50,945 bases of DNA from Microbacterium sp. Leaf159 (GTDB taxonomy: Bacteria > Actinomycetota > Actinomycetes > Actinomycetales > Microbacteriaceae), in contig NZ_LMOU01000001.1 in assembly GCF_001423615.1 (NCBI RefSeq), positions 1-50,945 of the forward strand, written 5' to 3'. Under the pieces are notes generated by a model that searched no databases, was not told where the DNA came from, and worked only from the letters and a program-made list of their open reading frames with translations. Positions 11,335 through 31,263 of this stretch are shown piece after piece (the stretch's first letter is position 1; every line of letters starts with the position of its first letter). The position numbers and the translations under genes are program-made.

Positions 11335-12205
11335 GGTCGAGCCGTCCGACACAGCGGCTGAGGCCGCAGCCACGGCTGCCGAGGGACCGGCACCTGCCGA
11401 TCTCAGCGATCCACCGGTCGCCGATCCGGGATTCCGGGTGTCGTTGACGAACTTCGACGGACCCTTCGACCTGCTGCTCACCCTCATCTCGAAGCATGAG
11501 ATGGACATCACCGAGGTGTCGCTGAGCGCCGTCACGAACGAGTTCATCGCATATCTCAAAGAGCTCGACGACGACGAGGAGCTCGACCAGGCCTCTGAGT
11601 TCCTCGTGGTCGCGGCGACCCTGCTCGACATGAAGGTCGCGGGGCTCCTGCCGCAGGGCGAGCTGGTGGATGCCGAGGCTGTCGCACTGCTCGAAGCCCG
11701 CGATCTGCTCTTCGCGCGCCTCCTGCAGTACCGTGCCTTCAAAGAGGTCGCGTCATGGTTCGCCCGCTGCCTGCAGCGCGAGGATCGCCGCCATGTGCGG
11801 GCCGTGCGTCTGGACGAGAAGCATCGCAAGAAGACACCCGAGCTCGTCTGGTCGCTCAGCGCCGACGACTTCGCCGCTCTGGCGCTGCTGGCGTTCGCGC
11901 CGAAGGAGATCCCGCATGTCGGGCTCGACCACCTGCACGCGCCGCTCGTGAGCATCCGGGAGCAGGCAGCGATCGTCGTGACCCTGTTGCGCACTGCCGA
12001 ATCGGTGAGCTTCCGCGAGCTGGTCGCGGGCGTGACCGAGCCGGGGATCGTGGTCGCGCGATTCATCTCCGTGCTGGAGCTGTATCGCCACGCCGCCCTG
12101 TCCTTCGAACAACTGGAACCGCTCGGCGAGCTGACACTCCGCTGGGCCGCCGACTCCTGGTCGGACGAGACTCTGGCATCGCTGGGAGCCGACTATGACC
12201 GATGA
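11318..12205 (+). CDS. scpA: Segregation and condensation protein A (ScpA)
   Basis: Kleisin subunit that bridges the SMC heads; 295 residues. The core begins at FRVSLTNFDGPFDLLLTLIS, the family signature, after a 35-residue Ala/Glu/Pro-rich leader. The GTG at 11318 (MALSPEVE) is chosen as the nearest start upstream of the conserved core that is compatible with the parA overlap of 17 bases. The stop is 11 bases inside scpB. Confidence 0.93.
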   Translation: MALSPEVEPSDTAAEAAATAAEGPAPADLSDPPVADPGFRVSLTNFDGPFDLLLTLISKHEMDITEVSLSAVTNEFIAYLKELDDDEELDQASEFLVVAATLLDMKVAGLLPQGELVDAEAVALLEARDLLFARLLQYRAFKEVASWFARCLQREDRRHVRAVRLDEKHRKKTPELVWSLSADDFAALALLAFAPKEIPHVGLDHLHAPLVSIREQAAIVVTLLRTAESVSFRELVAGVTEPGIVVARFISVLELYRHAALSFEQLEPLGELTLRWAADSWSDETLASLGADYDR

Positions 12206-12797
12206 CGTGACAGAAGCCCCGACCGACGAGGTCGTCCGTGAATCGCCTCTCTCCGAACGGATCGAGGCGATCCTGCTGATCATCGACGAGCCGATCGGGC
12301 TCGTCGCACTCGCGGCCGCAGTCGGCTCGCCCGTCGCCGCAGTTCGTCAGACGATCGAGACGCTCGTCGACGACTACGACGGCAAGGGGCAAGGACCGCG
12401 GCGCGGTTTCGAGCTCCGCGAGGTCGGCGGCGGGTGGCGTCTCTACGTCCGCGAGGATCACGACGACGTGGTCGCCGAGTTCGTCGGTGGCCAGGCGCCT
12501 GCGCGGCTGTCGCAGGCGGCGCTCGAGACGCTCGCGGTGATCGCCTACAAGCAGCCGGTCACTCGCAGCCAGGTGGCGTCGATCCGTGCGGTGAACGTCG
12601 ATTCCGTGGTGCGCACGCTGCTTGCGCGCGGCCTCATCACGGAGCTGTTCTCGGACTCCGAGACCGGTGCGATCAACTACGGCACCAGCGACGCACTCCT
12701 GCAGCATCTGGGCATCAACTCGCTCGACGAGCTGCCCCCCATCTCTCCTCTGCTCGACGACGGCGCGGACGGCTTCGACGAAGGGACCATCCGATGA
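12195..12797 (+). CDS. scpB: Segregation and condensation protein B (ScpB)
   Basis: Winged-helix KITE partner of ScpA in the condensin complex; 200 residues. Recognised by RIEAILLIIDEPI at the N-terminus and by LSQAALETLAVIAYKQPVTR with the following AIRAVNVDSV-type region in the second winged helix. It starts 11 bases before the scpA stop. The last residues, DEGTIR, and the overlapping ATGA are part of an 18-base sequence found twice more before rluB (see the repeat entry). Confidence 0.94.
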   Translation: MTDDVTEAPTDEVVRESPLSERIEAILLIIDEPIGLVALAAAVGSPVAAVRQTIETLVDDYDGKGQGPRRGFELREVGGGWRLYVREDHDDVVAEFVGGQAPARLSQAALETLAVIAYKQPVTRSQVASIRAVNVDSVVRTLLARGLITELFSDSETGAINYGTSDALLQHLGINSLDELPPISPLLDDGADGFDEGTIR

Positions 12798-12874
12798 CGT
12801 CATCCGATCCGATCGGATCGAACGCGGTCGGTACGGCACAGCGTCGCGGTTCCGATGAAGGGACCATCCGATGA
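12794..12874 (+). CDS. 26-residue mini-ORF 1 between scpB and rluB
   Basis: Begins at the ATG that overlaps the scpB stop and ends in SDEGTIR at the next ATGA. It has AAGGGA eight bases before the start. The peptide (MTSSDPIGSNAVG at its start) is Ser/Gly rich with no family I know. A perfect 16-bp palindrome, CGATCCGATCGGATCG, lies within it at 12805-12820. Translation is plausible from the layout, but a meaningless by-product of the repeat is also possible. Confidence 0.45.
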   Translation: MTSSDPIGSNAVGTAQRRGSDEGTIR

Positions 12875-12948
12875 TCCCGGTACCGATGACGGCCGTTCGC
12901 GTGGCCACGACGCAGAGTTTCAGTTTCAACGAAGGGACCATCCGATGA
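12871..12948 (+). CDS. 25-residue mini-ORF 2 between scpB and rluB
   Basis: Begins at the second repeat copy's ATG (MIPVPMTAVRVATT) and ends in NEGTIR at the TGA that overlaps the rluB ATG. Upstream AAGGGA has the same spacing as for mini-ORF 1 and rluB. Unlike mini-ORF 1 the peptide is hydrophobic at its start. Its likely function, if any, is to hand ribosomes on to rluB. Confidence 0.45.
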   Translation: MIPVPMTAVRVATTQSFSFNEGTIR

Positions 12949-13733
12949 GCGGCTTCGAGACACCCGAGGGCGTGCGCCTGCAGAAGGTGCTGTCAGCGGC
13001 GGGCGTGGCCTCGCGGCGCGTGATCGAGCAGTACATCGTCGAAGGACGAATCCGTGTCAACGGCGTGACCGTGACCGAGCTCGGTCGGCGCGTCGACCCC
13101 GAGAACGACCTCATCGACGTCGACGGCACCGCTGTGCAGCTCGATGTGTCGAAGCGCTATGTGATGCTCAACAAGCCCACCGGCGTCGTGAGCAGCCTGC
13201 GTGACGAGAACGGCCGCCCCGACCTCCGCCGGTTCACCGATGACTACGAGGAGCGCCTCTACAACGTCGGACGTCTGGACGCCGAGACCAGCGGCCTGCT
13301 GGTCCTGACGAACGACGGCGACCTCGCACACGTGCTCGCGCACCCGTCGTTCGGCGTCACCAAGGTCTACATCGCCAAGGTCGAAGGCGAGGTGACGGCT
13401 CAGACGATCTCGAAGCTCACCAAGGGGATCGAGCTCGAGGACGGGCCGATCGCCGCAGACAAGGCGCGCCTGCTGGACACCTCCCGCGGGTCGAGCCTCG
13501 TGGAGCTGACCCTGCACTCGGGGCGCAACCGGATCGTGCGCAGGATGCTGGCCGCGGTCGGCCACCCTGTCACCGAGCTCGTGCGTCGGCAGTTCGGCCC
13601 GCTGCACCTGGGAACCCTCCCGGTTGGGAAGACGCGCGAACTGACTAAAATCGAACTGGGCGCGCTCTTGACTCTGTCGCGCCGTGATTCCGGTGTCGCC
13701 GAGGCGCCAGGCGAGCAGCAGGAGAACGAGTGA
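12945..13733 (+). CDS. rluB: 23S rRNA pseudouridine synthase RluB type
   Basis: A 262-residue RsuA/RluB-family enzyme. The S4 domain spans about residues 8-55 (RLQKVLSAAGVASRR), and the catalytic domain contains VGRLDAETSGLLVLTNDG, whose Asp is the nucleophile, then the late motif HSGRNRIVRRML. It modifies 23S rRNA in the cytosol. The ATG at 12945 is inside the third junction repeat; longer in-frame extension upstream is rejected because the S4 domain begins here. The stop overlaps tyrA (GTGA). Confidence 0.93.
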   Translation: MSGFETPEGVRLQKVLSAAGVASRRVIEQYIVEGRIRVNGVTVTELGRRVDPENDLIDVDGTAVQLDVSKRYVMLNKPTGVVSSLRDENGRPDLRRFTDDYEERLYNVGRLDAETSGLLVLTNDGDLAHVLAHPSFGVTKVYIAKVEGEVTAQTISKLTKGIELEDGPIAADKARLLDTSRGSSLVELTLHSGRNRIVRRMLAAVGHPVTELVRRQFGPLHLGTLPVGKTRELTKIELGALLTLSRRDSGVAEAPGEQQENE

Positions 13734-14875
13734 CCGATACGACGAGTGCGCCCACGGGGGCCCGGAGTTCTGTCGCGCCGCGAATCGCGGCCAGGCTCTC
13801 CGGAACCGTGCGCGTCGTCGGCGCCGGTCTGCTCGGTGCGAGCATCGGCCACGCGCTCCGCGCCAAGGGCATCGACGTCGTCCTCGCCGACACCTCACCC
13901 GCACAGCTGCGCCTGGCGATCGACTACGGCGCAGGTCGTGCCGTGGCCGACGACGACGCACCGACGCTCATCGTCGTCGCCGTGCCGCCTGATGTCACGG
14001 CCGACGTGATCGAGGCGGAGCTTGCCCGATTTCCCGATGCGGTCGTCACCGACGTCGCGAGCGTGAAGCTCGAACCCTTCCGCAGCCTGCGCGACCGCGG
14101 CGTCGACATCACCCGCTACATCGGCTCTCACCCGCTCGCCGGACGCGAGCGCGGCGGAGCGATCTCCGCGCGCGCCGACCTCTTCATCGGTCGTCCCTGG
14201 GTCGTCTGCCGCGATGCCGACACCAGGGCTGCAGACCTCGCTCTCGTCGAGGCCCTCGCTCTCGATGTCGGCGCGATGCCGCTCGAGATGACCCCGGAGG
14301 AGCACGACCGCTCCGTCGCTCTCACGTCGCACGTTCCGCAGGTCGTCGCCAGCCTCCTCGCCGGACGGCTCGCGGTGGCCGATGAGGGCGCGCTGCGCCT
14401 GTCGGGCCAGGGAGTGCGTGACACGACGCGCATCGCGGCATCCGCTCCTGAGCTCTGGGTGCAGATCCTCGGTGCGAACGCCGAGCCCGTCGTGGAGATC
14501 CTCGACGCTTTGGCAGCCGATCTCCGTGAGGTGTCGGATGCGCTGCGCGCGCCCGAGGCGCCCGGTGCCCGGCGCGTGGTCGCCGAGACGATCCGGCAGG
14601 GCAATGACGGCGTCGAACGTCTGCCGGGCAAGCACGGTCAGAACCAGAGGTTCGAGTCCCTCGTCGTCATGATCGACGACACCGCAGGTCAGCTCGGTCG
14701 ACTGTTCGGTGAGCTCGGCGAGCTCGGTGTGAACGTCGAGGACCTCCGCCTCGAGCACTCGCCGGGCGCTCAGTTCGGTCTCGCCGAGATCAGCGTCGAG
14801 CCCGCTGCACTGCACGGGGCGATCACCGGACTCCAGGAACGCGGCTGGCGGATTGCAGGTACCACCAATGACTGA
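13730..14875 (+). CDS. tyrA: Prephenate dehydrogenase with C-terminal ACT domain
   Basis: Converts prephenate to 4-hydroxyphenylpyruvate for tyrosine synthesis; 381 residues. An NAD-binding Rossmann motif is at [13 protein letters not shown], the substrate region includes [11 protein letters not shown] and [12 protein letters not shown], and an ACT domain ([17 protein letters not shown] onwards, about residues 306-376) suggests allosteric feedback by tyrosine. The GTG start overlaps the rluB stop. It overlaps cmk by eight bases. Aromatic synthesis beside cmk is common in bacteria. Confidence 0.93.
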
Positions 14876-30028: not shown

Positions 30029-31263
30029 CAGTGGGACTCCGGGGTGGTGATGGCACGCTCGAGGCGTGTGGAGAGAAGGGCGATCGCGCTCGCGGGCACG
30101 GCGAGGACGAAGCTCGCGATGCCGAGGGCGACGGCGAAGCCCTGGAATCCGAGCACGCTCACGAGCGCGGCGCCGATCACGGGCGTGAGCGCCGAGCCCA
30201 CCAGGTAGACGGCGAGAAGTGGTCCCGACCAGCGACCGTCGGCGTCGAGCGCCGCCGAGGTCGACACGAAGTACATGAAGGCGATCGCGTACACGGTGTT
30301 CCAGGCGATGAAGACGACGATGAACGCGGTGGGGTCGGTCATGAACCCCTCGACGATCTTGAGCACGCCTCCGGCGACCAGCAGCACCGCCAGCGGCAGC
30401 GCGCGTCCGAGTCGGGATCCCACGATCATGAGCAGCAGCGATCCGATCAGACCGCCCGCGGTGGCTCCGCTGAGGGCGATGCCGAGCCCCTCGGGGGTCA
30501 GCCCTGTCTGCTCGGCGCCCATGACTCCGGCCATCGCCCAGAGGGAGTCCTCACTCGCCGCCCACAGTGCGAACACGACCAGCAGACCGAAGCCGGCGAT
30601 CGTGACCGTGCGTGAACGGGCGGGGGAGAGTCGGACCGTGCCGGTCGGCGGCACCTCGATCGGCATCGCCTCGGCCACAGCGGCCGCTGCCTGAGGATCC
30701 ACGACCGGGGCGGCAGGCAGCCACGCAGAGACGACGAGACCGAGGACGCTGAACAGGGCCAGCGCGCCGAAGACATCGATCGGGGCGAGGCCGACGAGGG
30801 GGATGACCGCGAGGACGATCGTGATCACGCCGCGGTTCGCGAGACCGTTGAAGCCGGCGACGCGGTCGGGGTTGCGGAAAGCGGCGAGGGCGGCGCCGGA
30901 GGCCGCTACGGCGCCGCCGGCGCCCGCACCGCCGAGGAGGAGCGCCGGAAGCATGAGCGAGGGGACGAGTGCGGCCGTGGCGAAGCCGAGGGCCGCGATC
31001 GCGAGCCCCGCCCGCGCGACGGTGCGTCGGTGCGCTCCGGCGCAGAGGGGCGCGATGGCGAGGCCGGTCACCGCGGTGAGCAGCAGAGTCGCGGTCACGA
31101 GCCAGCTCGCGGCGAGCACGTCGATGCCGAGTCCGGTCTGCGCGGCCGTGATCATGTAGGGCGAAAGGTTGACGCCGAGGTATCCGGCGATGCCGATCGC
31201 AAAGGTCGCGGTGGCGGTGGGCAGCCGAAGGGGGACTCGGGTGCTGAGGTCGATGGCGGTCAT
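30028..31263 (-). CDS. MFS transporter
   Basis: A 411-residue major facilitator with about twelve hydrophobic helices and a central cytoplasmic loop (PVVDPQAAAAVAEAMPIEVP). The Arg/His-rich turn AGAHRRTVARAGL is the loop 2-3 motif. It is first gene of a two-gene operon with the amidohydrolase and divergent from a TetR gene. It probably imports the hydrolase's substrate or exports a toxic compound. GGGAG lies before the ATG. Confidence 0.87.
   Translation of the reverse strand: MTAIDLSTRVPLRLPTATATFAIGIAGYLGVNLSPYMITAAQTGLGIDVLAASWLVTATLLLTAVTGLAIAPLCAGAHRRTVARAGLAIAALGFATAALVPSLMLPALLLGGAGAGGAVAASGAALAAFRNPDRVAGFNGLANRGVITIVLAVIPLVGLAPIDVFGALALFSVLGLVVSAWLPAAPVVDPQAAAAVAEAMPIEVPPTGTVRLSPARSRTVTIAGFGLLVVFALWAASEDSLWAMAGVMGAEQTGLTPEGLGIALSGATAGGLIGSLLLMIVGSRLGRALPLAVLLVAGGVLKIVEGFMTDPTAFIVVFIAWNTVYAIAFMYFVSTSAALDADGRWSGPLLAVYLVGSALTPVIGAALVSVLGFQGFAVALGIASFVLAVPASAIALLSTRLERAITTPESH

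Follow-up and report, generated by a model that had tools for sequence, protein, structure and literature searches.

The stretch of DNA analysed here, hereafter the window, comprises 50,945 nucleotides of Microbacterium sp. Leaf159 (contig NZ_LMOU01000001.1, positions 1 to 50,945 of the forward strand) and contains a gene cluster with the Pfam families SMC_ScpA, SMC_ScpB, PseudoU_synth_2 plus S4, and prephenate dehydrogenase. Within this cluster, the junction between scpB and rluB is present in three copies (Table 1). The name rluB was adopted from an earlier reader of the sequence, and the family assignment is by Pfam.

Table 1. Features of the scpB–rluB region (positions in the window)
Feature	Position	Strand	Evidence
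scpB (segregation and condensation protein ScpB), upstream gene	12195..12797	+	Pfam SMC_ScpB E 3.2e-45; ORF list
Junction copy 1: SD-like GAAGGGA, codons EGTIR, ATGA stop/start overlap	12780..12797	+	
Mini-ORF 1, 26 aa, MTSSDPIGSNAVGTAQRRGSDEGTIR, predicted bridge	12794..12874	+	
Junction copy 2	12857..12874	+	
Mini-ORF 2, 25 aa, MIPVPMTAVRVATTQSFSFNEGTIR, predicted bridge	12871..12948	+	
Junction copy 3: SD-like site and rluB start	12931..12948	+	
rluB (RNA pseudouridine synthase, S4 domain), downstream gene	12945..13733	+	Pfam PseudoU_synth_2 E 2e-24, S4 E 1.5e-12
GTGA overlap rluB/tyrA (prephenate dehydrogenase), control junction	13730..13733	+	

A preliminary description of this DNA had reported three identical junctions (starting at 12780, 12857, and 12931), and an exact-match search confirmed them as copies of the 18-mer GAAGGGACCATCCGATGA. 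There is no fourth site in the window, even with up to three mismatches allowed. The chance expectation at that tolerance is 0.07 sites in the window, and none of 100 shuffled sequences gave three sites; a chance repeat was therefore rejected. The order is scpB, mini-ORF 1, mini-ORF 2, and rluB, with stop and start sharing four nucleotides at all three junctions—the geometry of termination–reinitiation—and the coordinates agree with the earlier reading of 26- and 25-codon ORFs joined by four-base overlaps. The steps between the junction copies (77 and 74 bases) are both 2 mod 3 and thus keep the phase, as had been claimed. The last codons of scpB (GAA GGG) are the source of the SD-like site. 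In contrast, the claim that the two spacers are independent was not borne out: their alignment score was equalled by just one of 1000 shuffled pairs, and they are therefore probably diverged copies of one unit. Elsewhere in the window, positions 264–1271 hold in-frame 18-mer repeats (e.g. GGGTGGCTACAACCGTGA), which suggest a repeat-rich coding region at the window start.

Homologues of rluB are present in 361 of 366 genomes of the genus. Junctions were drawn from the 130 best-matching rluB genomes (the window's own included) and from 80 named records; of 212 loci one (L112) was dropped, and the remaining 211 represent 151 distinct junction regions. The other 231 genomes with rluB were covered at scpB–rluB by the junction-repeat pattern search alone (see below). 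Junctions were classified by a chain test, that is, by reading on from the start codon that shares bases with the scpB stop. By this test, 120 of the 151 distinct junctions are direct, 25 are relays, 2 are broken, with chains ending at a plain stop (L200 and L212), and 4 have no overlapping start (L081, L087, L206, and L207). Each relay mini-ORF ends on the next overlapping start; 22 relays have one mini-ORF, two have two, and one has three, and the count of 25 includes a trivial case (L060, VTL). When a single genome is taken per species (n = 130), the corresponding numbers are 104, 21, 2, and 3. Mini-ORF number varies between species, being two in L001, one in both L003 and L004, three in L017, and zero in L011; one unit is also seen in L032 (Leaf320). 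On a tree computed without the ScpB tail, at least 17 state changes separate relay and broken junctions from the rest, and the window's relatives (L001 and L003–L010) form one clade. SD-like sites are weak at some of the relays of element type described below. At another relay, L046, the first junction has GAGCCC in place of the SD-like GAAGGG, with ATGA and phase retained. In the rows nearest to L046 on the tree (L120, L130, and L135), a junction copy has seemingly been absorbed into the RluB frame (MTGFHEGTHPMNDSE), perhaps marking a former relay.

At the family level, 69 loci (three of them from the same genus) were sorted by the same test: the tested overlap is lacking in 35, 12 are direct, 11 are out of frame, 9 have no RluB core that could be recognised, and 2 have one mini-ORF. 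The latter two are L290, from another genus and with a short duplication (MIQTR), and L277, a single frame extending beyond 100 codons that we do not count as a relay. In other genera, overlaps of types not scored by the chain test seem to be in use.

Whether inserts fall into the phase that permits hand-off can be judged in two ways. Firstly, 28 distinct junctions measure >75 nt from the scpB stop to the RluB core (L060, L095, and L212 fall under this cut), and 23 of these are relays; two are fused in frame to rluB (L028 and L135), one is broken (L200), and two are uncoupled (L206 and L207). We grouped these into independent events from tree neighbours and sequence, obtaining 11 relay events: the window clade with L046 and L135; L012; L017; L026; L027 with L127; L113; L182 with L200; L105 with L110; L111 with L199; L093; and L168. 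Relays thus account for 11 of 14 independent inserts (the others being L028, L206, and L207) against an expectation of one-third (p = 6.9e-4), or for 11 of 16 (p = 4.0e-3) if L135 and L200 are taken as separate events. Secondly, a junction-repeat pattern that was derived from known relays, and that allowed all gaps from 32 to 62 without any phase rule, matched 22 sites in 19 of the 366 genomes, the reversed-pattern control matching none. The unit length is 2 mod 3—the sole phase allowing hand-off—at all 22 sites, of which 16 lie at scpB–rluB (13 genomes), 4 at E1-beta/E2, and 2 (L339 and L342, with no long ORF upstream) at no clear junction. The 20 matches at gene junctions amount to about seven independent events in our grouping, for which (1/3)^7 = 4.6e-4.

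Together with the window clade, in which the chain is intact in nine of nine members, these counts uphold the claim that in-phase hand-off is kept. We consider it very unlikely that duplications of any length are retained and that those found are in phase by accident: the independent events are few (7 to 16) and their groupings our own, but the pattern matches share one phase without exception, most inserts are relays by either count, and the same phase recurs at three other gene pairs (one of which, scpA–scpB, was noticed via the chain test). Ordinary coupling through a single junction, which the preliminary description had held to count against its reading if found in close relatives together with frame breaks in the spacer, is common among the relatives, whereas frame breaks are rare among duplicated junctions. 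Such frame trouble is seen in L200, in which a later change broke the chain, and in L120, L130, and L135 through the absorbed copy.

Sequence comparison among close relatives indicates that frame and junction, rather than the mini-peptide, are what is kept. In the window clade, the mini-ORF adjoining rluB is intact in every member at 63, 66, 78, 84, or 90 nt, the chain being kept through all five lengths. Mini-ORF 2 has an aligned counterpart in sister species, and the extra unit of mini-ORF 1 is found in none of the other members of this nine-member clade. Over six close species pairs, the last junction shows no difference in 18 nt in any pair, and the spacer shows 6–9 differences in 56–68 nt. 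By hand sums over six pairs of close relatives, which have species in common and are thus not independent, pN is ~0.11 and pS ~0.12 for mini-ORF 2, compared with pN ~0.013 (range 0–0.035) and pS ~0.19 for scpB. The spacer diverges somewhat less than scpB silent sites, and weak constraint on it is possible.

These values bear directly on the suggestion that the mini-ORFs specify micropeptides with a function and a shared C-terminus. Both run open from a start to a stop codon and have an SD-like site, and both end in EGTIR; yet this ending is explained by the SD-like site, which the EGTIR codons encode, and peptide length ranges from 20 to 29 aa within the clade. Moreover, amino-acid change per site about equals silent change over the six pairs, while scpB hardly changes in its protein. 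Purifying selection on the mini-ORF 2 peptide was thus not detected (pN ~ pS, six pairs), conserved micropeptides were rejected on the same ground, and a functional micropeptide of any kind strikes us as most improbable.

An equally small chance is left to the spacer acting as a leader-type attenuator or regulatory RNA, the former also envisaged in the preliminary description, or to RluB having an N-terminal extension. The rluB frame is indeed open further upstream, with an ATG at 12855 yielding a 292-codon ORF, so automatic annotation might set the rluB start there. Across the long relay loci, however, the frame stays open as far back as the first overlap in just 10 of 23, and an extension was rejected as a general explanation. 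No strong RNA structure was detected at the spacer (fold z-score 0.23), and a search of positions 12000–14000 against Rfam gave no family at threshold, the sole match lying far below it and inside scpB; an RNA structure or Rfam element was rejected on these results, which lend the attenuator no support.

The extra units appear to have more than one origin. Many relays have an extra junction copy similar to the scpB end of the same species (GAAGGAGTGGTCCG in L026; the GAGGGTCTGGTTCG type in L017). In L012, the first residues of the mini-ORF product MTSPVSADAAQPEGVRLQKVLFDEGTIR match the RluB start and the last residues the ScpB end; judged by its sequence, this locus looks like the birth step itself, a fresh tandem duplication carrying the first rluB and the last scpB codons. 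From L012 and the copies that resemble scpB ends, the unit appears to stem from tandem duplication across the junction, and we infer that the extra copies were made in this way. Other relays (L093, L095, L105, L110, L111, and L168) have inserts unlike junction copies in which the chain is still kept, and in L199 an insert occurs together with a final copy that resembles a junction. Relays have thus arisen repeatedly, through duplication of a species' own junction or through other inserts. The window's second unit may derive from recombination between identical copies; the sisters L003 and L004 have one unit. Since such recombination would add or remove units in phase, extra units in an existing relay are not independent evidence for phase selection.

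A mobile, dispersed element of the mycobacterial MIRU type, inserting at start codons, is a further candidate. The inserts of L110 (1871–1985) and L105 do contain a dispersed element of ~73 bp, palindromic by eye (TGTCCC ... GGGACA), with 5 and 9 further genomic sites, respectively (E up to 0.01), and with the ATGA chain kept; moreover, MIRUs likewise carry an ORF with −4 nt coupling, according to the consulted part of a review (PMC12548453). The window's unit, on the other hand, was not found elsewhere in its own genome, the next best match having E 0.013 over 24 bases, and extra copies resemble the scpB end of their own species. A dispersed or MIRU-type element was rejected for the window unit in view of its single genomic site, and as an account of these relays it is hardly to be entertained.

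The overlap between rluB and tyrA served as a control. Among loci L002–L111, that junction is direct in 86 cases, a relay in 1, out of frame in 1, disrupted in 1, and without overlap in 8, while scpB–rluB of the same loci is direct in 75, a relay in 20, and lacks the overlap in 3. The frequency of relays among distinct junctions is 20 of 98 at scpB–rluB versus 1 of 97 at rluB–tyrA (Fisher 8e-6, with loci that are not independent). In L087, the tyrA frame is seemingly disrupted near its start, reflecting either a biological frameshift or a sequencing error. Purifying selection on phase alone does not explain the difference between the two junctions; something favours relays at scpB–rluB, be it a mutational hot spot, tolerance, or a benefit.

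The last of these possibilities can be phrased as adaptive tuning, in which each hop loses ribosomes, the mini-ORFs lower rluB relative to scpB, and units are gained and lost to set the ratio. The recurrence of relays at scpB–rluB in scattered lineages (by the above count of state changes, which places broken with relay junctions), their rarity at rluB–tyrA, and the differing copy numbers of close relatives (2, 1, and 1 mini-ORFs in L001, L003, and L004) are all in keeping with it. A mutational hot spot, or tolerant variable tails of ScpB and RluB, would yield the same recurrence, though, and copy number, length, and peptide are all unconserved, with 120 of 151 distinct junctions having no mini-ORF. 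We regard tuning as rather unlikely. Its extension, namely that tandem junction duplication is a recurrent evolutionary device of Microbacterium operons, in which added non-functional, in-phase mini-ORFs make the relay longer and thereby reset the output ratio of neighbouring genes with promoter and RBS untouched, is offered as a speculation of much the same, perhaps very slightly better, standing.

Additionally, the same architecture occurs at E1-alpha/E1-beta, E1-beta/E2, and scpA/scpB of other Microbacterium species. Four other species have a 20-aa mini-ORF between E1-beta and E2 of a 2-oxoacid dehydrogenase operon (genomes G035, G319, G346, and G351; loci L332, L347, L349, and L350, around 1501–1577), with Pfam assignment made at one locus (L332). 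In three of the four it begins MIAE, as does E2 (MIAEFLL), and in the remaining one it begins VIRE, corresponding to MIRE in E2; it ends in EGGVR in G346, like the upstream gene, and in the variants ERVVR, EGAAR, and EGGRR in the other three. In G074 (L381, around 1501–1575), a 20-aa mini-ORF (MTIRHIEVDRATILVSGGVR) lies between E1-alpha, which ends SGGVR, and E1-beta, which starts MTIT, and G188 (C34, 114306–114380) looks like the same duplication, judged from the repeat match alone. Both genomes were chosen by their visible repeat from a different pattern, which has matches in 184 of 366 genomes; by eye, most among the matches listed are chance or in-frame repeats. Finally, L025 contains an in-phase tandem duplication of the scpA–scpB overlap with a mini-ORF ending ASLGADYDR, like ScpA (by eye). 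This junction is a longer overlap, so the chain test cannot count relays there and L025 was read singly; L025 and L290 came to notice by way of that test and so do not bear independently on phase.

A scan of 400,490 of the 3,887,207 bases of the window's own genome found 39 direct RTGA gene pairs and 6 single-mini-ORF candidates, the latter without a repeated junction. It also gave 53 pairs of repeated RTGA 18-mers. Besides the window's own, the pairs at 2 mod 3 are L221, L226 on the plus strand, and window position 31151 (3–4 mismatches), and those at 1 mod 3 are L223 (4 mismatches) and L226 on the minus strand (1 mismatch). With long ORFs checked on both sides, no gene-to-gene relay was found among L221, L226 on either strand, and window 31151.

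The reading that we favour, and think likely on the strength of these sequence comparisons, is that the extra in-phase junction copies are stepping stones: duplications and inserts would survive mainly if ribosome hand-off continues, the peptides being by-products. A ribosome ending scpB would restart on mini-ORF 1 (at 12794), then on mini-ORF 2 (at 12871), and then on rluB, which presumably depends on ribosomes delivered from scpB, as the conserved phase indirectly suggests. An insert between the two genes would be tolerated mainly with a length and frame permitting this hand-off, and the mini-ORFs would be bridges under purifying selection for coupling. For gene pairs measured in Escherichia coli and H. 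volcanii, the consulted portion of one study reports that reinitiation is largely or wholly lost at a spacing of ~20–40 nt (PMC10666635); a review, in the part consulted, cites coupling that persists at about +40 nt though reduced 3- to 10-fold, together with a study that saw no reduction up to +25 nt (PMC12548453). As far as these sources go, an untranslated gap of 70–150 nt would be expected to uncouple rluB, whereas a series of ORFs, each terminating on the following start, would keep it coupled, and the mini-ORFs are accordingly read as bridges. Coupling is not indispensable, since L206 and L207 are uncoupled, L200 is broken, and L212 ends at a plain stop; rluB might also start independently from its own SD-like site at copy 3.

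The scpB–rluB inserts amount to a natural experiment on the importance of stop/start overlaps: whatever their origin, they persist mostly in the length class that would allow hand-off, although their codons drift. Long coupling chains thereby become directly testable, a source of spurious small ORFs is indicated, and it is suggested that MIRU-like units could be born with no mobile element involved.

Among the literature matches listed, judged by title and the opening of the abstract, no description of duplicated coupling junctions was found. The preliminary assertion that no such relay had been described is nonetheless too strong: MIRUs are described as units with an ORF that, on insertion, becomes joined to the adjacent gene by −4 nt coupling (PMC12548453, part consulted), and 41 locations are given for Mycobacterium tuberculosis H37Rv in the corresponding part of another source (PMC2734929). 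Like MIRUs as portrayed there (PMC12548453), the window's unit is short, lies between co-directional genes, and has an internal ORF coupled at −4 nt; and just as the number of MIRU copies differs among isolates at certain loci (PMC2734929, same part), so the window's unit varies in number between species. MIRUs are dispersed, however, whereas the window's unit is at one site and looks like a local duplicate of the junction, and junction copies here follow the scpB end of each lineage. MIRUs are thus the nearest precedent in the sources as consulted, and what is new here is a unit that is not dispersed and looks to have been made from the junction at which it lies. The junction itself is of a familiar kind, an overlap of −4 nt being the commonest prokaryotic coupling geometry (PMC10666635, PMC12548453; parts consulted). 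As in ATGA termination–reinitiation coupling, it combines that overlap with an SD-like site inside the upstream gene, but here it is repeated, and a ribosome would reinitiate two to three times through ORFs without a conserved product. Short upstream ORFs, too, can serve merely to deliver ribosomes to a coupled gene, according to the portion of the review consulted (PMC12548453), and bringing a ribosome to the next start is the likely role of the short ORFs here; the difference is that those of the window are intra-operonic, lying between two full genes and bounded by junction copies.
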